Shown here: in pieces, positions 14,565 to 47,051 of the stretch
Layout: each line of letters opens with the position of its first letter
Numbering within the stretch: the first letter of the stretch is position 1
Source: Acidimicrobiaceae bacterium
GTDB lineage: Bacteria > Actinomycetota > Acidimicrobiia > Acidimicrobiales > RAAP-2
Direction of reading: 5' to 3'
Assembly (NCBI GenBank): GCA_003158855.1
Contig: PMLJ01000012.1
Span: 65,516-113,637, forward strand
DNA length: 48,122 nucleotides
Notes under the pieces: model-generated
Told to the model about the DNA's origin: nothing
The model's input: only the letters and a program-made list of their open reading frames with translations
The model's database searches: none
Made by a program: the position numbers and the translations under genes

Positions 14565-15476
14565 TCAGTTCACGCTCATGAACGCATTGAGCACCCCCGC
14601 GAGCTCGCGGCCCTTCTCCTCCTGCAGGAAGTGACCACCACCCTCGATCGTGACGTGCAGCTGGCCGCTGGTGCCGGGAACCTTCGCGAGGAACTTCTTG
14701 TCCGCGCCCTTGGTGATGGGGTCGCTGTCTGAGAAGCAGCAGAGAAACGGCTTCTCCCATTTCTCGAGCACTGCCCACGCGGCGACGTTGGCGTCGTGGG
14801 CGGGGTCTTGCGGGGAGGTCGGCACGAGCAGGGGAAACTGTCGGGCCCCTTCCTTGAAGGTGTCGTCAGGGAATGGCGCGTCGTACGCGGCGATCACCTC
14901 GGGGCGCAGCCGCACCACGCAACCACCCGAGACGATTCCGCCGACGTGAAGGTCCGGCGTGTTCTGGCTGTACTCCTGCCACGCCTTGAACGCATCGTTC
15001 GGCCTCTCGTCGCCGGTGGGCAGCCCGCCGTTGCCAATGGCCACCCGAGCGAACCGCTCAGGGTGCTCGCCCACGAGGCGAAGGCCCACGAGGCTGCCCC
15101 AGTCCTGGCCGAACAGGGTCACGTTCTGCAGGTCGAGGTGATCGAAGAGCAGCTCGCGCGCCCACTCCACGTGGCGCGCGTAGGTGTAGTCGCGCCGGTC
15201 GCTCGGCTTATCCGACTGGCCGAATCCGATCAGGTCCGCGACGACGACCCGGTGGCCCGCCGCGACGAGCACCGGGATCATGAAGCGATAGAGGTACGAC
15301 CAACTGGGCTCGCCGTGCATCAACAGCACCACGTCCGCGTCCGCGGAACCTTCGTCGTAGAAGGCCATGCGCAGGTCAGCACCGCCGGTGGGGTCCTTCA
15401 CGTCCGCGTACCCGGCTTCGAATGGGAAGTCTGGCAGGTTGACAAACCGTTCTTCAGGGGTGCGTACTCGCTCCAT
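14565..15476 (-). CDS. Haloalkane dehalogenase-like alpha/beta hydrolase (HLD-I)
   Basis: 303 residues. HGEPSWSYLYR (54-64) holds the oxyanion segment, GFGQSDKP the strand 4 loop, and GQDWGSLVGLR the nucleophile Asp125 with the halide-binding Trp126. An acidic FSDSDP (about 249-253) and His282 in GGGHFLQEE complete the triad. The pattern is that of HLD subfamily I (DhlA-like), which cleaves C-Cl or C-Br bonds hydrolytically in the cytoplasm. ATG 15476 has AAGGAG 5 nt upstream. It follows the sulfatase gene by 37 nt on the same strand and is probably the last gene of a four-gene transcript. Natural substrates of many such enzymes are unknown. Confidence 0.88.
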   Translation of the reverse strand: MERVRTPEERFVNLPDFPFEAGYADVKDPTGGADLRMAFYDEGSADADVVLLMHGEPSWSYLYRFMIPVLVAAGHRVVVADLIGFGQSDKPSDRRDYTYARHVEWARELLFDHLDLQNVTLFGQDWGSLVGLRLVGEHPERFARVAIGNGGLPTGDERPNDAFKAWQEYSQNTPDLHVGGIVSGGCVVRLRPEVIAAYDAPFPDDTFKEGARQFPLLVPTSPQDPAHDANVAAWAVLEKWEKPFLCCFSDSDPITKGADKKFLAKVPGTSGQLHVTIEGGGHFLQEEKGRELAGVLNAFMSVN

Positions 15477-15513
15477 CGCGTCTCCTTGTTGACGTACCGC
15501 ATTGGTGGTGCAG

Positions 15514-17769
15514 CTACTGGCGGGCCATGCCTTCTCTCGCCGCGGTCACCTTCTCCTCGGTACCATCCTGCGAAACTAGTTGAATGTCCACCCGTTCGAG
15601 TTTGCCTACGAAGGCGAACTCGCCTTCGTAGCGCTTGGAGACCGGCGAACCCTGGTCGCGGCCGATGCTCATGCCGATGGTCGACATCATTCGCATGAGT
15701 ACCGGCAGGTGATACGAACCAGCCTTTCGTCCATCGATGGTGAGGGCCACGTCGGCATCATTCTTCCCGCGTCGGAATTTGAGGCCAATCACCGAAGGCC
15801 CGGTCGGGACCGGCTCGACCGACTCGACAATGTAGTGGTCGTTGAAGAAGTTGTAGTCAAAGACCAGGCGGTCGTCCTGGATGAACAGGCTGACCCCCGC
15901 GTTCTCGGTTCCAAACGCCATCACGACCCCCTCGCCGCCCGCCGGCCGATCGATTACGGCGTCCAGATCCCAACTGCGCCCACCAATCCCCGCCGCCGCC
16001 TGCGGAGGGATCGGGTTCAGCGGAGGGTAGTAGGTGTAGTGCCGGCTCGGAGGATGAGGAGAGTTTTCACGGAACCTCGCACCGAAGAGTTCCAATCCAC
16101 GATCATCCAACGGCAAGACGTCGTACTCTTCGGCGTCTTGCCACCAAAGGTCGATGAGTTCGGCGAGTAGCTCTGGATTGGACGACGCGAGGTCGTGGCA
16201 CTCGGAGTTGTCGACCGCGACGTGGTAGAGCTCCCAGCGATCATCATCGAATGAAACACCGGGCACGTGGCGCGTCACGGCCTTCCAGCCCTCGCGATAC
16301 ATCGCTCGATGGCCGCCCATCTCGAAGTACTGCCTCGTTCTCGGGTTCGCCACGTCCTCGCCGCTGAAGGTGTAGGCAATCGACGTTCCGGCTATGGGCA
16401 TCTGCTCGAGTCCTCGATAGACGTCGGGCACGTTCACCCCCGTCGACTCGTAGACGGTGGGCGCGATATCGGTGACGTAGTGGAACTGGCGGCGCACCTC
16501 GCCCTTCGCCTCGATCCCGCGAGGCCAGTGCGCGATGAGCGGAACGTGCACTCCGCCTTCGTGAGTGTTCTGCTTGTACCACTTGAAGGGCGTGTTGCCG
16601 GCTTGGGCCCAACCCCACGGGTAGTTCGAGTGGCTGCTGGGCCCCCCGATGTCGTCGAGCCGCTGGACCGCTTCGTCGGGACTCTCCATCAAAAGATTGA
16701 AGTACTTCATCTCGTGCAGGACCCCGAATGGTCCGCCTTCCTGGGACGCCCCGTTATCCGACATCAGCAGAATCAGCGTGTTGTCGAGCTCGTCGAGCTC
16801 GTCGAGGCTCTTGACCAACCTTCCAATCTGCGCGTCGGTGTGTTCAAGGAACGCCGCGAACGCCTCCTGCAGCCGGCACGCCAACTTCTTTTGGTTCTCC
16901 GGCAGCGATTCCCACGGTTCGACGCCGGGGTTTCGCGGCGCCAGTTCAGTGTTGGCGTCGATGATTCCCAGTTCCTTTTGACGGGCGAACCAGCGATCGC
17001 GCGCGACGTCCCATCCCTCGTCGTAGCGGCCGCGATGCCTGGCGAGGTACTCGGCGGGCGCCTGGTGCGGGGCGTGCATCGCGCCAAAGGCGAAGTAGTT
17101 GAAGAACGGCCGATCGGGACGGATCGACTTGGCATCATGGATGAACTCGAGCGCGTGGTCAACGAGGTCCTCACTCAGGTGATAGCCGTCAGCCACGCTC
17201 CTCGGAGGTTCGACGCGGTGATTGTCGTAGACGAGATCGGGCGCGAACTGATCAGTCTCACCGTCGAGGAATCCGTAGTAGCGGTCAAAGCCCCGGGCGA
17301 GCGGCCACTGGTCGAACGGACCCGCCGAGGACGAGTTCTCCATCGAGACCAGGTGCCACTTGCCTACCGCGAACGTCGTGTAGCCGCTGTCGCGCATCAC
17401 TTCGGCCATCGTGCAGGCGTGATTGGACACTTGACCGCGCATGCTCGGAAAGCCCGAACTCCAGTTGGAGATGCCCCGCATGCCTACGCTGTGGTGATTG
17501 CGACCGGTCAGCAGTGCCGCGCGCGTCGGCGAACAGAGCGGCGTGACGTGAAAGTTCGAGTAGCGCAGCCCGCCCGCCGCCAACGCATCGATATTCGGGG
17601 TCGCCAGGTCGGAGCCGAAGCAACTCAAGTGCGAGAACCCGAGGTCGTCGATCAGGATGACCACCACGTTGGGCGCGCCCTCTTTCGGGTGCGTCAGCGT
17701 GGGCCACCACGGAGTCGAATCGGCCAAGGTTCTTCCGATCTCTCCTTCGAACGGCTCGAAACGCTTCAT
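15514..17769 (-). CDS. Type I sulfatase (arylsulfatase family)
   Basis: 751 residues, in the range of large arylsulfatase A/choline-sulfatase-like enzymes. NVVVILIDDLGFSHL gives the metal-binding Asp pair (41-42). The formylglycine site is CSPTR at 79-83, so Cys79 must be oxidised by a formylglycine-generating enzyme; none is encoded here. VGKWHL, GAMHAPHQAP and LMSDNGASQEGG supply further active-site residues. The C-terminal 200 residues form the usual beta-rich domain. No signal peptide is seen, so it may be cytoplasmic. ATG 17769 is preceded by a G-run at 3 nt; a GTG at 17793 is possible. It lies 46 nt after the PfkB gene. It would release sulfate from an organic sulfate ester. Confidence 0.92.
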   Translation of the reverse strand: MKRFEPFEGEIGRTLADSTPWWPTLTHPKEGAPNVVVILIDDLGFSHLSCFGSDLATPNIDALAAGGLRYSNFHVTPLCSPTRAALLTGRNHHSVGMRGISNWSSGFPSMRGQVSNHACTMAEVMRDSGYTTFAVGKWHLVSMENSSSAGPFDQWPLARGFDRYYGFLDGETDQFAPDLVYDNHRVEPPRSVADGYHLSEDLVDHALEFIHDAKSIRPDRPFFNYFAFGAMHAPHQAPAEYLARHRGRYDEGWDVARDRWFARQKELGIIDANTELAPRNPGVEPWESLPENQKKLACRLQEAFAAFLEHTDAQIGRLVKSLDELDELDNTLILLMSDNGASQEGGPFGVLHEMKYFNLLMESPDEAVQRLDDIGGPSSHSNYPWGWAQAGNTPFKWYKQNTHEGGVHVPLIAHWPRGIEAKGEVRRQFHYVTDIAPTVYESTGVNVPDVYRGLEQMPIAGTSIAYTFSGEDVANPRTRQYFEMGGHRAMYREGWKAVTRHVPGVSFDDDRWELYHVAVDNSECHDLASSNPELLAELIDLWWQDAEEYDVLPLDDRGLELFGARFRENSPHPPSRHYTYYPPLNPIPPQAAAGIGGRSWDLDAVIDRPAGGEGVVMAFGTENAGVSLFIQDDRLVFDYNFFNDHYIVESVEPVPTGPSVIGLKFRRGKNDADVALTIDGRKAGSYHLPVLMRMMSTIGMSIGRDQGSPVSKRYEGEFAFVGKLERVDIQLVSQDGTEEKVTAAREGMARQ

Positions 17770-17815
17770 GTTCCCCCCGGTGCTCAGTGCCACGATAGGG
17801 CACCGACGCCGCTCG

Positions 17816-18748
17816 CTAGAAGGACGCGGCGAGCCTCGCAGAAATCACGTCGCGTGGCGGGCACGTGGCGGGGCCGAGAGTGCTGATGGCGATGGCGGCA
17901 CCAACGTTGGCCCTGCGCAGGGCTTCGATGACGTCGGTCCCCCTCGCCAGTTCGGCTAGCAACACGCCGTTGTGCACATCACCCGCGCCGTTCGTGTCGA
18001 CCACCTCGATCGCGAAGGCCGGCACCTCGAATGCGCCGCCGTGCGCCTGGGCGGCGACGCAACCGAGCGCACCGCTTCGCACCACCACCCCGCGAGAGCC
18101 GGTGAGCTCCAGGAGTTTCTTCGCGCTGACGCTCGCCACCGCTTCGCCGCTGAGCGACGTCGCCTCGCTGGCGTTGCACAGGAACCAGTCGGTTCGCGCC
18201 ATGACCTCGTGCAGTATCCCATCGGGGATATCGAGCACCCGCGGACCGGGATCGAACGCCACGACGACCGCCACTGGGAGCTGGCGCAGCCACGTAATCG
18301 TCTGCGCCCCAATGGCTGGGTATACGAAGTTGTAGCCCGAGAGGAACACGAAGTCGCCGTCGGCGATGCCCACCGACAGGAGTTCCGACGCGCTCAAGGT
18401 CCCCTCGGCACCTGGCGACGTGACGAATGTTCTCTCCCCGTCATCCTCGACGAGCACTACGCAAAGACCCAGGTCCTGATCGTCGCGCGCGGGCACCGCC
18501 ACGTCTATCGCTTCGTGGCGCAGGGCTTCGAGAGCGATATCGGCGAAGGGCCCGTTCCCAAGTTGCCCCACGTACGTGACCGCCATGCCCTGGCGAGCCG
18601 CGGCGCTCATGGCGTTGAAACCACCCCCGGCCGTGACGAGCCGGTCGGTGGCGAGCGAATCAGAACCGCGCAGCGGAAGGTCCGTGATCTTCAGCACCAG
18701 ATCGAGCATGACCGTGTCCAGACCGAATAGCCGCGGTGACGTCTTCAT
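17816..18748 (-). CDS. PfkB-family carbohydrate/nucleoside kinase
   Basis: 310 residues. The N-terminal LFGLDTVMLDLVLKI and GGGFNAMSAAARQG form the substrate side of the ribokinase fold, and DTNGAGDVHNGVL at 251-263 is the PfkB signature with catalytic Asp257 and the GAGD anion hole. LCNASEATSL is the usual N/E motif that binds Mg. ATG 18748 has AAGGTG 7 nt upstream and lies 11 nt after the ADP-ribosylglycohydrolase gene, so both are co-transcribed. The pairing is like E. coli yegU-yegV. It may phosphorylate the ribose or other sugar freed by the neighbour hydrolase. The exact substrate cannot be read from sequence. Confidence 0.9.
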   Translation of the reverse strand: MKTSPRLFGLDTVMLDLVLKITDLPLRGSDSLATDRLVTAGGGFNAMSAAARQGMAVTYVGQLGNGPFADIALEALRHEAIDVAVPARDDQDLGLCVVLVEDDGERTFVTSPGAEGTLSASELLSVGIADGDFVFLSGYNFVYPAIGAQTITWLRQLPVAVVVAFDPGPRVLDIPDGILHEVMARTDWFLCNASEATSLSGEAVASVSAKKLLELTGSRGVVVRSGALGCVAAQAHGGAFEVPAFAIEVVDTNGAGDVHNGVLLAELARGTDVIEALRRANVGAAIAISTLGPATCPPRDVISARLAASF

Positions 18749-18759
18749 GCAATCGCACC

Positions 18760-19782
18760 TTACCGACGCAGGGCGAGGAGCTCGCCCGCGATCTTGGCCA
18801 GATCCAACGAATTCGTCTCCTCGACCAGCGCAACGGCCCACGACGGGAACGACTGCGTTCCGCCGCACGCCCCGGCCATTGCGCCGGTGATTGCGCCGAT
18901 GGTGTCGCAGTCACCGCCGAGTGACGCGGCGACGCAGCAGGCGCTCCACGAGTCATGCCCGTAGGCGGCGAGCAGGGCGAACGCCGCGGGCACCGATTCA
19001 TTGGAGGCCAGACTCGTGCCGATCTCCCGGTTGATCGCATCGATGAGGGCGATCCCCTTGCAGGAACGCCCCAGCTCGACGGCTCTCGCAATCTGCGCCG
19101 CAACTCGGGGGCCCTCGCTCGGCGCGCCGAACGTTTCGCCGATGAGCGCGGCCCGGATTCCCCGATCGATGGCGACCGCGTACGGCGCGCGGTCTATCCC
19201 GGCGCTCACCACCGCGGCGACGGCGGCCGCGGCGCTGATCGCCACCGACGTGTTGTGCGTCGGGGCGCTCACCTCGACGACCCGGGCGACGAGGGCTTCG
19301 AGGTTGTTGCTCGTGCACACGATCCCCACCGGCGCCACCCGCATCGCGGCGCCGTTGGTCACGCCCGCGAGACCCGACTCGGAGAGATCCGCACCCTCCT
19401 CGATGTTGCGCAGGGCCTTCCTCGTCGAGGGTCCGAGCAGATCGAGGATTCCGCGAGCTCGCACGCTCTCCTCCCATTCAAGGAGGCGCCGGGCGTACGC
19501 CTTGGCGTCGAACGAGTCAAAGGAAGCCAGCAGCACGTCGGCGAGAATGAGCGCCTGCTCGGTGTCATCAGTGACCGTCGCCGCAGTGAGACCGGCAGCG
19601 AATGGATGCGTCGGGCTCGACGGTTGAAAATCCCTCACCAACTCACCGAATTCCTTGACCACATCTTCACGAGTGAGCGACTGCGTTGGCATGCCGAGCG
19701 CGTCGCCGACTGCGAGACCCGCGAGGGTCGCGTACGCGCGATCGAGCGCCTTTGGGTCAACCACTGCGTCGCTGGCGCTCAT
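18760..19782 (-). CDS. ADP-ribosylglycohydrolase-family protein (DraG/ARH fold)
   Basis: 340 residues. LAGLAVGDALGMPTQ and VTDDTEQALILAD (TDDTE at 71-75) are the N-terminal metal-site motifs; LGGDCDTIGAITGAMAGA near residue 297 is the C-terminal one. The family binds two Mg ions and hydrolyses N-glycosidic bonds of ADP-ribosyl or other ribosyl groups. ATG 19782 has no Shine-Dalgarno but follows TAACTT by 7 nt, so transcription probably starts at the start codon. It is the first of four minus-strand genes and is divergent from an NCS1 permease. This setting argues for a small-molecule N-riboside substrate rather than ADP-ribosylated protein; that is inference. Confidence 0.88.
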   Translation of the reverse strand: MSASDAVVDPKALDRAYATLAGLAVGDALGMPTQSLTREDVVKEFGELVRDFQPSSPTHPFAAGLTAATVTDDTEQALILADVLLASFDSFDAKAYARRLLEWEESVRARGILDLLGPSTRKALRNIEEGADLSESGLAGVTNGAAMRVAPVGIVCTSNNLEALVARVVEVSAPTHNTSVAISAAAAVAAVVSAGIDRAPYAVAIDRGIRAALIGETFGAPSEGPRVAAQIARAVELGRSCKGIALIDAINREIGTSLASNESVPAAFALLAAYGHDSWSACCVAASLGGDCDTIGAITGAMAGACGGTQSFPSWAVALVEETNSLDLAKIAGELLALRR

Positions 19783-19789
19783 CTTGGTC

Positions 19790-19795
19790 AAGTTA
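19790..19795 (-). promoter_or_regulatory. Leaderless -10 box of the ADP-ribosylglycohydrolase operon
   Basis: TAACTT on the minus strand, 7 nt before ATG 19782. The divergent permease starts at 19928, so about 145 bp hold both promoters. Confidence 0.5.
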
Positions 19796-19927
19796 GCCGG
19801 ACTGTTCTTCTTCGAGCGAGGAACACGGCGCAAGGACGAGGGCGCAATGTTGACCAAACATCTCCGAAATGCTGCCTCTTCTGCCTAAAATCTGGCCTAC
19901 GAATTGCAACGCTGCCAAGGAGGCCAC

Positions 19928-21397
19928 GTGAGTGACGAACTTTCCGAGATTCTGGGAACGGGTGGCGGCGACGCACTTCGCGTTGAGGAGAACGGCATCA
20001 ACGTCATCGCGGAGTCCGAACGAAGGGGTCACCCTCGTGAACTCTTCTGGCCGTGGTTCGGCGCCAACATCTCGGTGCTCGGCCTTGGTTACGGCTCGTA
20101 CGTCCTGGGTTTCGGAATCTCCTTCTGGCAGGCGGTCGTGGTCGGCCTGGTCGGCATCTGCGTGAGCTTCCTGCTCTGCGGCATCATCGCCACCGCCGGC
20201 AAGCGCGGATCCGCCCCCACCATGGTCCTCAGCCGCGCGGCCTTCGGGATCCGCGGCAATCGCCTGCCATCAGCGATTTCGTGGCTTCTTTGCGTGGGCT
20301 GGGAGACGGCGCTGTCGGTCATCGCGGTGCTCGCAACATCCACCGTCTTCACCCGGCTCGGCTGGGGCGGCGGCACCGGCGTGAAGGTCACGGCGCTCAT
20401 CGTCATCGGCGTGCTCATTGTTGGCGGAGGCGTGATGGGCTTCGATCTCATCATGCGCATGCAGGCCATCATCACGGTCGTCACCGGCGTGCTCTCGGTC
20501 TTCTTCATCATCCTCACCCTCAAGCACATCAGCTGGCACGTGGTCTCGCACGTGCCCGTCGGCTCGGCGCAGAGTCTGATCGGCGCGCTCGTCTTCGTGA
20601 TGACCGGATTCGGCCTCGGATGGGTGAACGCCGCCGCCGACTACTCGCGCTACCTGCCCCGCGACGCCTCAACCAAGGGCGTGGTGTGGTGGACGACGTT
20701 CGGCTCGTCCGTGGCCCCGCTCATCCTGCTCTTCTTCGGTCTCATGCTCGCCGGATCGTCGAAAGCGCTCAGCAGCTCCATCGGCAACGACCCGGTGGGC
20801 GCCCTCGCCAACCTGCTGCCCACGTGGTTCCTGGTGCCCTTCGCCGTCGTCGCCATTCTCGGGCTGGTGGGTGGCGCGGTCCTGGACATCTACTCGTCGG
20901 GTCTGTCGCTGCTCTCGGCGGGCATAAGGATCCCGCGCTACGCCGCGGCGGGCGTCGACGGGGTCATCATGATCGGCGGCACCATCTACATCGTCTTCGC
21001 CGCGGGCAGTTTCCTCTACCAGTTCGAGGGCTTCCTCATCACGGTCGGAGTCCTCATCGCCGCGTGGTGCGGGGTGTTCCTCGGCGACCTGGTGCTTCGC
21101 AAGAAGGACTACTCCGACGCCGATCTCTTCAACGACGCCGGCCGCTACGGCGACATCCGGCTCGTCCCGATGCTCACGATCATCATCGCCAGCGCTATTG
21201 GCTGGGGACTGGTGACCAACAACTATGCGTCGTGGCTGACCTGGCAGGGTTACCTGCTGAAGCCGCTGGGGCTCGGTGGCAAGTCGGGCGCGTGGGCCTA
21301 CGCGAACCTTGGAGTCCTCGCGGCGTTGGCGCTGAGCTTCGTGGTGACGGTGATCTTCGACCGCCAGCGCGTCCTCGAGCAAGAGTCCCTCGTCTGA
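19928..21397 (+). CDS. NCS1-family nucleobase/nucleoside:cation symporter
   Basis: 489 residues with about 12 membrane segments. The cytosolic N-terminus has GINVIAESERRGHPRELFWP, then FGANISVLGLGYGSYVLGFG for TM1; the GFGLGWVNAAADYSRYLPR segment is the hallmark of purine-cytosine permeases. It should import a nucleobase, nucleoside or similar ring compound with Na+ or H+. The start is GTG 19928 with AAGGAGG 5 nt upstream; the frame is open from 19904, but that part contains the Shine-Dalgarno itself. It is divergent from the ADP-ribosylglycohydrolase operon and convergent with the isochorismatase-like gene. Confidence 0.9.
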   Translation: MSDELSEILGTGGGDALRVEENGINVIAESERRGHPRELFWPWFGANISVLGLGYGSYVLGFGISFWQAVVVGLVGICVSFLLCGIIATAGKRGSAPTMVLSRAAFGIRGNRLPSAISWLLCVGWETALSVIAVLATSTVFTRLGWGGGTGVKVTALIVIGVLIVGGGVMGFDLIMRMQAIITVVTGVLSVFFIILTLKHISWHVVSHVPVGSAQSLIGALVFVMTGFGLGWVNAAADYSRYLPRDASTKGVVWWTTFGSSVAPLILLFFGLMLAGSSKALSSSIGNDPVGALANLLPTWFLVPFAVVAILGLVGGAVLDIYSSGLSLLSAGIRIPRYAAAGVDGVIMIGGTIYIVFAAGSFLYQFEGFLITVGVLIAAWCGVFLGDLVLRKKDYSDADLFNDAGRYGDIRLVPMLTIIIASAIGWGLVTNNYASWLTWQGYLLKPLGLGGKSGAWAYANLGVLAALALSFVVTVIFDRQRVLEQESLV

Positions 21398-21414
21398 GCT
21401 GCCCGGCGAAGCCC

Positions 21415-21975
21415 CTAGTCCAGTTGCTCGATCCACTGCGCGGCGGTGACGACGGTCGCCTGGCGGGGAAAGACCTTCTCCATCAGGAGGCGGTGCACTT
21501 CGGGGTCAGCGTCGGCGCACGCGTCGCTCAGAATGGTGATCTTGAAGTCGAGATCGGCGGCGTGGCGCGTCGTCGAGAGCACGACGCCGCTCGTCGCTAT
21601 ACCGCAGAGCACCAGCGAATCAACGTCGAGCGATCGCAGGACCACGTCAAGGTCACTCCCAGCGAAGGCGCTTACGCGGCGCTTGGTCACGGTCACTTCT
21701 CCTTCGATTGGCGCGAGCCTCGCGTGCACCTGGGTCGAATCGGCGCTCTCGCTCATCGTGCTCGAGCCCGCGAGCACCGAGAACGACTGATTCTTCGGGT
21801 TCGCCTCGGGTGCGCCGTCGCGAAACGCCACGCGCACGTAGATGATGGGCATCTTCGCCGCCCGCGCGGCGCTCTGGACCGAGCCGATGACGCTCAAGAG
21901 CTCTTCGGAGCCTTCGGCGAACCGTGCGACGATTCCATTCTGCATGTCCATTATGAGCAGTGCTTGGTTTGCCAC
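21415..21975 (-). CDS. Isochorismatase-family cysteine hydrolase
   Basis: 186 residues with the Asp-Lys-Cys triad of the family: Asp10 in LLIMDMQNG, Lys98 in VTVTKRRVSAF and Cys124 in LVLCGIATSGVV. The CGIATSGVVLST loop is closer to the amidohydrolase members (nicotinamidase, carbamoylase, ureidoacrylate-type) than to true isochorismatases, which lack the Cys. The gene is convergent with the permease, 17 nt apart. An amidohydrolase next to a nucleobase permease would suit opening or deamidation of a ring compound. ATG 21975 has GGAGAC upstream. Substrate unknown. Confidence 0.9.
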   Translation of the reverse strand: MANQALLIMDMQNGIVARFAEGSEELLSVIGSVQSAARAAKMPIIYVRVAFRDGAPEANPKNQSFSVLAGSSTMSESADSTQVHARLAPIEGEVTVTKRRVSAFAGSDLDVVLRSLDVDSLVLCGIATSGVVLSTTRHAADLDFKITILSDACADADPEVHRLLMEKVFPRQATVVTAAQWIEQLD

Positions 21976-22356: not shown

Positions 22357-23181
22357 TTACTTGGACAACTTGTTCTGAAGGTTCACGATCTGCTTGAACA
22401 GCGCGCCCAGCTCGTTGCTCAGCGCCGAGATCTGGGCGCTGGTGACGGGCGTCTTCTTGTTCTCAAGAATCAGGATCTCGTCCGCGCTCACTTCGCTCTG
22501 CGTCGTGGCAAACGATGTGAGCAAACCGTTGAACGTGGCGTTCGGACCATTGGCGTCGCTCAGAAGGCTCTGGGACTCCGCCTTGAGGTTCTCGCTGGCG
22601 TAGAGATCGTCGGCGACCGTCGATGACTTCACGTCGAGCGCTTCGGTATCGAGCTGCATTGCGTAGAGCACGGCAACCGCCCCGACGCTCCACGGGGCGT
22701 AGCCGACCGGCCCGCCGTTCACGTCGACCGAGAGCAGATAGATGTCGGATCCCACGTTCGCCGACTGGTAGTAGATCCGTCCGGTGTTGCGCGCGATGTC
22801 TTCAGCGCTGGACTGCTTCGGATACGCCAGGTAGGCGCTCGCCAGGGAACGGACGTCGGCGATGAACTTCTCCACGACGGCCTTTTGCGATGAAGGGACG
22901 CTGGCCTTGGACGCCAGCGTCGCCTCGGCGACCAGGGCTTGCATGTCCTGTGCGGCGACGCTCTCTTCCTTGCTCCTCGCCTTCTTGCACTTGGAGGACT
23001 CGCAGAAGAAGTAGTCCCGGATGTTGTTGACGTAGGTGTCGGCGTGCTTCACAATGGTCCTGGTCGCCGACGTCGTCGTGGCGGCTGAGGCCCCGCTGAG
23101 TGGAAGGGCGCAGCATCCCACCGTTAGCAGGCTCGCCAGAAAACCGCTCGCCACCCTCTTTGAATTCATGATCAGTCCCAC
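22357..23181 (-). CDS. Secreted protein of unknown function
   Basis: 274 residues from GTG 23181, chosen because AAGGAG lies 6 nt upstream; an ATG four codons later is possible. The N-terminus has a signal peptide (SKRVASGFLASLLTVGCCALPL, cleavage likely after SGASA). The mature part is helical, rich in Ala, Ser, Glu and Lys, with one close cysteine pair in FFCESSKCKKARS. The C-terminus ISALSNELGALFKQIVNLQN looks like a coiled coil. I recognise no domain. LTVGC resembles a lipobox but lacks the usual residue at -3, so a lipoprotein is less likely. A possible 71-75 codon gene lies just upstream. Confidence 0.75.
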   Translation of the reverse strand: MGLIMNSKRVASGFLASLLTVGCCALPLSGASAATTTSATRTIVKHADTYVNNIRDYFFCESSKCKKARSKEESVAAQDMQALVAEATLASKASVPSSQKAVVEKFIADVRSLASAYLAYPKQSSAEDIARNTGRIYYQSANVGSDIYLLSVDVNGGPVGYAPWSVGAVAVLYAMQLDTEALDVKSSTVADDLYASENLKAESQSLLSDANGPNATFNGLLTSFATTQSEVSADEILILENKKTPVTSAQISALSNELGALFKQIVNLQNKLSK

Positions 23182-23206
23182 GTGCGTCTCCTTGTGCCGA
23201 CCAACC

Positions 23207-23422
23207 TTAAGCGACCGGCTTCGCGTCGATCTTCTGCGGCGCGCCAAACCCAGTCACCGATTGACGAATGCGCGGCCGTTCCACCGGGGAGTTGAAACTC
23301 CAAACCCGTTCGAGTTCGAGGATCCGCACACTTCCTTCTTCCTTTGACGCGGCAACGAACGAGTGCGCCAGACCGAGACGGCGCACGCCGAGGCGCCGGG
23401 CCGTCAGCGATACGCCGATCAT
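23207..23422 (-). CDS. Possible small protein upstream of the secreted protein gene
   Basis: 71 codons from ATG 23422 to a stop 25 nt before the next gene. The sequence starts MIGVSLTARRLGVRRLGLAH and ends PQKIDAKPVA; it is basic with no motif I recognise. The position just ahead of a good Shine-Dalgarno and the same strand argue for a short leader cistron. Mixed third-codon GC and absence of a clear RBS argue against. The divergent region to 23487 otherwise shows nothing definite. Confidence 0.3.
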   Translation of the reverse strand: MIGVSLTARRLGVRRLGLAHSFVAASKEEGSVRILELERVWSFNSPVERPRIRQSVTGFGAPQKIDAKPVA

Positions 23423-38319: not shown

Positions 38320-38394
38320 TGGTGCCCCTGGCAGGATTCGAATCTGCGCTCACGGTTTAGGAAACTGACGCTCCATCCCTTGAGCTATGGGAGC
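38320..38394 (-). pseudogene. Degenerate tRNA-Arg(CCT) copy
   Basis: 75 bases including an encoded CCA end, same length and orientation as the intact tRNA-Arg at 46977-47051 and with similar 5' flank. The anticodon loop TTCCTAA is kept, but the acceptor stem has two mismatches (positions 6-67 and 7-66), the anticodon stem has an A-C mismatch (29-41) and the T-stem has lost the conserved G53-C61 pair. It is probably non-functional. Confidence 0.7.
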
Positions 38395-46976: not shown

Positions 46977-47051
46977 TGGTGCCCCCGGCAGGATTCGAAC
47001 CTGCGCACACGGTTTAGGAAACCGATGCTCTATCCCCTGAGCTACGGGAGC
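46977..47051 (-). tRNA. tRNA-Arg (anticodon CCT)
   Basis: Minus strand. Acceptor GCTCCCG pairs with CGGGGGC (one G-T pair), D-arm GCTC/GAGC, anticodon loop TTCCTAA with anticodon CCT, T-arm GCAGG-TTCGAAT-CCTGC and an encoded CCA end. All stems close. It reads AGG codons. Confidence 0.95.

Follow-up and report, generated by a model that had tools for sequence, protein, structure and literature searches.

A possible riboside salvage cassette of an ADP-ribosylglycohydrolase-family hydrolase, a PfkB-family kinase and an NCS1 permease in an Acidimicrobiaceae bacterium

The window analysed here is a stretch of 48,122 nucleotides (nt) from a soil bacterium of the Acidimicrobiaceae and lies within a 118.5 kb contig (PMLJ01000012.1) of a 2.7 Mb genome that is 96% complete. 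It encodes a hydrolase of the ADP-ribosylglycohydrolase family (ADPRH) and a PfkB-family kinase, divergent from an NCS1-family permease. ADPRH-family hydrolase, PfkB kinase and a transporter together form a widespread core, and two unrelated kinases, PfkB and a protein resembling the alpha-ribazole kinase CblS, fill one slot beside one hydrolase clade. We tentatively read this core, with a confidence somewhat short of even, as one form of a widespread cassette for the salvage or breakdown of ribosides, in which import would be followed by phosphorylation and only then by cleavage by the ADPRH.

The hydrolase, kinase and permease core

The leftward run consists of the ADPRH, PfkB, sulfatase and haloalkane dehalogenase genes, in that order; the NCS1 permease gene diverges from it and is met by a convergent isochorismatase-like gene. 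All six genes are open reading frames, and their families, their coordinates and the gaps of 11, 46 and 37 nt in the run (computed from the starts at 19782, 18748, 17769 and 15476 as read from the frames) agree with a sequence-only reading of this DNA, as judged from the open frames and from Pfam and NCBIfam scores, with all six Pfam assignments above the Pfam cut-offs. The same six-gene order recurs in two relatives of the genus, G029 (locus L011, 92-98% identity) and G017 (L012, 73-90%), which rules out an assembly artefact as the source of the arrangement. The core genes are:

18760..19782, minus strand: ADP-ribosylglycohydrolase-family hydrolase of the cassette-linked clade (Pfam 208 bits, motifs, clade support, model)
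17816..18748, minus strand: PfkB-family kinase with a ribokinase-like fold, lacking ribokinase Lys43 and Glu143 (Pfam 141 bits, alignment, model)
19928..21397, plus strand: NCS1-family permease with a GTG start (TTG at 19904 according to the open-reading-frame tool; Pfam PF02133, 119 bits)

The hydrolase exceeds the gathering score of the ADP_ribosyl_GH family (PF03747), 26.2 bits, by a wide margin and carries the motifs GDALGMPTQ, TDDT, TNGAAMR and GGDCDT, with TDDT and GGDCDT being metal-site motifs. Its predicted structure (predicted local distance difference test score, pLDDT, 94) has its best match in the Protein Data Bank (PDB) in 1t5j (MJ1187, Z 38.8), and aligns with DraG and ARH3 at Z of about 33-35. 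With the DraG/ARH ADP-ribosylhydrolases it shares the fold and the family aspartates and threonines, but it differs from them in its TNGA.MR loop and in a Gln replacing the Glu of the first DraG motif, and it fails the DraG model (TIGR02662, 75.8 bits, cut-off 337) as well as the Tri1 model (70.1 bits, cut-off 490). In a tree of 46 selected ADPRH rows (labelled 18 pfkB, 12 cblS, 2 unk and 14 none, the root drawn at the midpoint), 33 rows including the window protein and E. coli YegU form a clade with a support of 100/100, apart from 13 non-cassette actinobacterial rows. These labels are as first given, with L087 as none despite an adjacent PfkB gene (126 bits) and L085 as unk.

The failed models and the separate clade make it improbable that the cassette serves ADP-ribose or ADP-glucose chemistry, i.e. 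the release of ADP-ribose from proteins or small compounds, or a role in glycogen metabolism as proposed for E. coli yegTUV. The ADPRH fold with its motifs would suit such a role, as would the report in PMC10819704 that GgaR (YegW), a sensor of ADP-glucose, acts as a repressor of yegTUV and influences the accumulation of glycogen, but it leaves the nucleobase- or riboside-type importers and the riboside-type kinases unexplained.

Within the genus, an ADPRH was found at E<=1e-20 in 9 of 37 genomes, compared with none of the 24 other genomes of the order. Across the 15 genus loci compared, our own counted, what stays constant is the pairing of PfkB with a divergent NCS1 permease: PfkB, or ADPRH-PfkB, diverges from NCS1 in 14 of the 14 loci showing both, and the permease of G034 lies at a contig start. 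The ADPRH stands between the two in seven loci (our own, G029, G017, G035, G020, G036 and G022), while kinase and permease persist without it between them in another seven (G003, G007, G008, G010, G012, G014 and G018). Six of the latter genomes, all but G010, have no ADPRH match at E<=1e-20 at a completeness of 75-94%. In G010, the PfkB-NCS1 pair without an ADPRH lies about 3 kb away from a further PfkB-ADPRH pair that has diverged (L018:9062-16238). In the PfkB tree the kinases divide accordingly, with the seven ADPRH-linked ones in one clade (97/90) and the other seven in its sister group (93/86).

The permease matches the NCS1-type family Transp_cyt_pur, and a PDB sequence search with it gave no match at E<=0.001; an orthologue with at least 72% identity is present in 11 of the 23 genus genomes searched. 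No GntR regulator was found within 4.5 kb in the eight genus loci scanned (L015-L022), a set that contains the two nearest relatives of the window (L019, L020) and leaves the window itself outside.

Relatives outside the genus and the exchange of kinases

Relatives from outside the genus, belonging to several phyla, were gathered by a genome scan with the window ADPRH and by a plasmid search. The core also occurs in Streptomyces, Burkholderiales, rhizobia, Lactobacillaceae and E. coli (yegTUV), and its transporter is exchangeable. The order (GntR)-ADPRH-NCS1-PfkB is found in Streptomyces, a Bacillota metagenome-assembled genome (MAG), Paraburkholderia, Caballeronia and Lactiplantibacillus, the order ADPRH-PfkB-ABC transporter in Mesorhizobium, Rhizobium and Paracoccus, and yegT-yegU-yegV in E. 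coli. The GntR-ADPRH-cytosine permease-PfkB cassettes of Streptomyces and Paraburkholderia/Caballeronia share all three families with the window, NCS1 included, but lie on one strand with GntR in front, whereas the permease of the window is divergent and no GntR gene was found nearby. In Streptomyces himastatinicus the ADPRH and the NCS1 permease are read in one 864-residue frame (L030:9983-12577), reflecting either a gene fusion or, the genome being a draft, the loss of a stop codon.

The parallel with E. coli yegTUV, drawn already in the sequence-only reading, proved to be one of homology. YegU belongs to the same strongly supported ADPRH clade, and YegV to the same group of PfkB kinases, scoring 394 bits with the cassette PfkB model, of which it is one of eight rows. 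YegT is annotated as a nucleoside permease and differs from the NCS1 protein here, both being of nucleoside or nucleobase type. Unlike the genus loci, which lack a nearby GntR gene (4.5 kb), yegTUV has the GntR gene yegW alongside, and unlike the window it has no sulfatase or dehalogenase. Its function was termed unclear in 2024 (PMC10819704). This is also the nearest paper among those listed by searches of the open-licence PMC literature, where we found none that assigns an activity to the cassette.

In Ignavibacteriota, Fidelibacterota, Bacteroidota, Bacillota and one spirochaete, the ADPRH is preceded by a protein resembling AIR synthase. This protein matches Listeria EL207_RS12750, encoded directly ahead of cobU, cobS and cobC (model score 150 bits), and a Levilactobacillus plasmid gene between an energy-coupling factor (ECF) S-component gene and cobS (198 bits); in Listeria, we take lin1110/lmo1146 to be CblS. 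On the basis of this cob-locus context and of the description of CblS as alpha-ribazole kinase and CblT as alpha-ribazole transporter, as given in PMC6461909, we assign the protein to the CblS family. Among the 19 tabulated cassettes of this type, 12 have ECF genes in range and 18 a GntR gene.

The kinase neighbours were tabulated for 59 cassette-type ADPRHs (model score >60 within 4.5 kb of the ADPRH): 35 have PfkB only, 19 a CblS-like protein only, one has both (L051) and four have neither, three of these four (L031, L059 and L060) lying at contig ends. The table leaves out the window, L064 (a 26% match), and L011/L012 and L013/L014, which are the same loci as L019-L022. As a control with the same reach, a PfkB or CblS-like kinase was found beside none of 26 actinobacterial ADPRHs outside the clade, eight of which have less than 2 kb of sequence on one side. 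The actinobacterial loci (L085-L113, the best 29 among 55 genomes with a match) were treated apart from the table. Among them, the clade-like L087/L211 has PfkB beside its ADPRH, and L085/L209 a CblS-like gene 4.0 kb off; the tree had placed L085 in the cassette clade before its flank was known. A third clade-like locus, L086/L210 (G319, L210:5014-6346), shows an ADPRH broken over two frames, no kinase and an NCS1 remnant of 100 residues, and appears to be a decaying cassette.

Given the starred branches of the ADPRH tree, each kinase label must have changed at least three times, and YegU is placed within the hydrolases of the CblS type. The locus with both kinases, from a Bacteroidota MAG (L051:8-9124), has an ADPRH-PfkB pair divergent from an operon of BtuF-like, GntR, ECF-S, CblS-like, EcfA, EcfT and ADPRH genes. 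All loci were found by similarity to the window ADPRH, the sequences behind the models come from the same set, and many of the genomes are MAGs.

Order of reactions and substrate

In the proposed scheme, the NCS1 permease would bring in an N-riboside, perhaps alpha-linked in the manner of alpha-ribazole, that is a poor substrate for the usual enzymes of nucleoside metabolism. PfkB would phosphorylate its 5' hydroxyl and thereby trap it, and hydrolysis of the N-glycosidic bond by the ADPRH-fold enzyme would then split the riboside phosphate into ribose 5-phosphate and free base. Substrate, anomer, kinase-first order and products are those we infer. The logic would be that of the PsuT/PsuK/PsuG route for pseudouridine with a different hydrolase, as PsuG, which cleaves a C-glycosidic bond, is unrelated to the window ADPRH. 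According to PMC9247573, the Psu system likewise combines an importer, a PfkB riboside kinase and a glycosidase in one operon.

An earlier proposal for this locus had the reverse order, in which the ADPRH first splits the riboside after its import and PfkB, as a ribokinase, then traps the released ribose. It is weakened rather than overturned, and we regard it as unlikely but still a serious contender. Every cassette with both genes fits either order, and ribokinase is both the best NCBIfam match of the window PfkB and its top structural match (1rk2, Z 36.8, rmsd 2.0, 296 aligned; pLDDT of the predicted structure 89.9). With 110.7 bits, however, the kinase fails the ribokinase model (TIGR02152, cut-off 299.65), and PfkB kinases with a wide variety of substrates lie only a few Z units away, such that structural neighbours fail to separate ribokinase from nucleoside kinases. 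At the columns of ribokinase Lys43 and Glu143, which we take to be ribose contacts, the window PfkB has a gap and a Val, while Asp16, Asn46, Glu190 and Asp255 (ribokinase numbering) are retained. Across 22 PfkB proteins, including YegV and seven kinases without an ADPRH beside them, Lys43 is never kept and Glu143 once (L082), compared with Asn46, Glu190 and Asp255 in all 22. The persistence of kinase and permease in the seven ADPRH-less genus loci also speaks against the hydrolase acting first, as does the occupation of the same slot by a riboside kinase family, the CblS-like proteins.

The retained Asp16, Asn46 and Asp255 are the equivalents of PsuK Asp16, Asn45 and Asp256, which contact the riboside in PsuK, with Glu190 near the supposed metal site (PMC9247573); the window kinase does not keep Asn143 and Lys170, through which PsuK contacts the base. 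By analogy, the link to CblS and the handling of alpha-linked ribose by the ARH fold suggest an alpha anomer. PDB entry 7arw is, by its title, an ARH3 mutant with alpha-NAD+ bound, and this fold can therefore hold alpha-N-ribosides.

Alpha-ribazole salvage by CblT/CblS likewise pairs an importer with a riboside kinase, and ADPRHs of the window clade stand in CblS-like operons of other phyla; the window has NCS1 and PfkB instead. Salvage of a cobamide lower ligand, in which the riboside phosphate would feed the assembly of the vitamin B12 nucleotide loop, would fit the CblS-like kinase and the ECF genes, and three module-bearing genus genomes (G017, G020 and G035) carry both CobT and CobS. Neither was matched in the genome of the window or in five other module-bearing genus genomes (G010, G022, G029, G034 and G036), and of the 19 CblS-type genomes 17 gave no CobS match and 18 no CobT match. 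Cobamide assembly is thus highly improbable, and is rejected as the purpose of the cassette in its own genome, unless the assembly genes are missing from a 96% complete bin. With CobS and CobT so rare among the CblS-type genomes, the phosphorylated riboside would mostly not be built into a cobamide; another consumer is then needed, for which the ADPRH is the obvious candidate.

Several points weigh against the kinase-first riboside scheme. The ADPRH could take the riboside before any phosphorylation, and the nearest solved relatives of PfkB, by fold and by sequence, are mainly ribokinases, which speaks for a free sugar as the compound phosphorylated. Gaps fill most of the Lys43 column, and the result there depends on the alignment. 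The PfkB tree splits along the presence of the ADPRH, so that its loss in the genus was probably one event and not seven, loss being simpler than gain since the out-of-genus relatives in this tree carry an ADPRH. L057 has an ADPRH without a nearby kinase. The set was found via the window ADPRH, 8 of the 59 tabulated loci come from the genus of the window, and many Streptomyces loci are near-copies. The completeness of the 19 CblS-type genomes is not given, and incomplete sequence may account for part of their lack of CobS and CobT. As both are lacking in the own genome too, there is no local pointer to alpha-ribazole itself. Finally, the CblS-like proteins are only 30-39% identical to those in cob loci, 7 of the 19 cassettes have no ECF gene in range, and no cobalamin riboswitch reached the gathering score in 15 CblS-type loci or in Streptomyces L023 (0/16, only two tRNAs being found), which leaves alpha-ribazole specificity unproven.

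A riboside-like role, as first proposed, is still the best guess for the locus, but the full six-gene unit to which it had been assigned was drawn too wide, the core being ADPRH, PfkB and transporter. The replacement of PfkB by a CblS-like kinase beside the same hydrolase clade provides a short, testable substrate list for the annotation problem of yegTUV. It is conceivable, if rather doubtful at present, that the whole cassette ADPRH clade, YegU included, consists of alpha-N-riboside 5'-phosphate hydrolases with interchangeable riboside kinases, PfkB or CblS-like. This would amount to a general route for taking apart alpha-ribosides and other unusual ribosides that are no substrates for nucleoside phosphorylases. 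If the riboside reading is true, the ADP-ribosylglycohydrolase fold would gain a metabolic role outside the removal of ADP-ribose from proteins.

Downstream of the CblS-type cassette L040 (L040:9980-20559) lie genes for a PHP-type metallohydrolase, two proteins resembling TonB receptors and one resembling adenosylhomocysteinase, together with a CNT nucleoside transporter and an adenosine deaminase, which point to nucleoside use.

Neighbouring genes and promoter-like sequences

The remaining features of the locus are:

14565..15476, minus strand: haloalkane dehalogenase, accessory (NCBIfam PRK00870, 448 bits)
15514..17769, minus strand: type I sulfatase with a CSPTR motif, accessory; alternative start 17793 (Pfam 213 bits)
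21415..21975, minus strand: isochorismatase-fold protein without the amidohydrolase Cys (Pfam Isochorismatase, 137 bits)
19790..19795, minus strand: TAACTT, -10-like hexamer 7 nt before the ADPRH start codon (sequence reading, conservation)
19886..19891, plus strand: TAAAAT, -10-like hexamer of the permease gene, within the GCCTAAAATC element (sequence reading)

The dehalogenase matches Abhydrolase_1 with 96 bits and far exceeds the cut-off of its NCBIfam subfamily (265); it keeps the nucleophile Asp and the Trp of the family, its GQDWGS aligning with CQDWGG of 6f9o, the nearest solved relative. The sulfatase has the CxPxR motif, and its nearest solved relatives are arylsulfatases, e.g. 4cxk and 1hdh. 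A sulfatase maturase of the formylglycine-generating-enzyme (FGE) type was not found in the own genome, with no match to PF03781 and a radical-SAM match of only 37.6 bits (cut-off 349).

Both genes had been suggested as possibly acting on a decorated substrate, which would extend the core to one pathway for a sulfated, halogenated riboside. We consider this very unlikely. The contiguous order on one strand with short gaps would speak for it, as would the presence of both genes after PfkB in three relatives without the ADPRH; the complete four-gene leftward run was seen uninterrupted only in the own genome, G029 and G017. Sulfatase and dehalogenase follow PfkB in six genomes: these three and the ADPRH-less loci of G003, G014 and G012, in the last of which the sulfatase gene is split over two reading frames (L184:9864-12015). 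G036 and G018 have the dehalogenase alone after PfkB, the sulfatase missing from the locus, and neither gene was found after PfkB in G020, G007 and G010, nor in the first 7 kb or so of the G008 flank. The G035 and G034 loci end at contig edges. In G022 the 1.5 kb past PfkB contain no sulfatase match, and a separate contig carries, in flank order, a sulfatase end, the dehalogenase, TrmO and TK. The two genes thus come and go independently of the ADPRH. In two other families of the order they flank a gene with a metallo-beta-lactamase fold (61-63% identity; L192:7383-11549 and L193:7013-11245), and no cassette gene was matched in the 18 kb around these rows. As they recur together without cassette genes, sulfatase and dehalogenase look like a lineage-specific neighbour pair of their own, which would have been placed downstream of the core in some species.

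The isochorismatase-like enzyme had been expected to open or deamidate the base. Its gene is convergent with that of the permease, and the protein reads SGVVLST in the window and in all five orthologues read, with a Val at the position of what we take to be the catalytic Cys in the motif of isochorismatase-fold amidohydrolases, which argues against that role.

The leftward run had further been assigned one leaderless promoter. The pattern TA(A/G)(C/G)TT-GACCAA(C/G)-(A/G)TG is shared by the window with four of the six genus relatives that have an ADPRH at the same place, and the TAACTT hexamer fits a putative leaderless promoter, transcription itself being unproven by conservation; internal promoters may lie within the gaps of 46 and 37 nt. 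The permease gene has its own TAAAAT and an AAGGAGG ahead of the GTG at 19928, and the GCCTAAAATC element is present in 7 of the 14 loci compared, the window counted. The only known RNA families found in the window are two tRNAs (46980-47051 and 38323-38394). A protein of 296 residues without a Pfam match, encoded at 22357-23247, is found together with the isochorismatase-like gene in five relatives of the genus.

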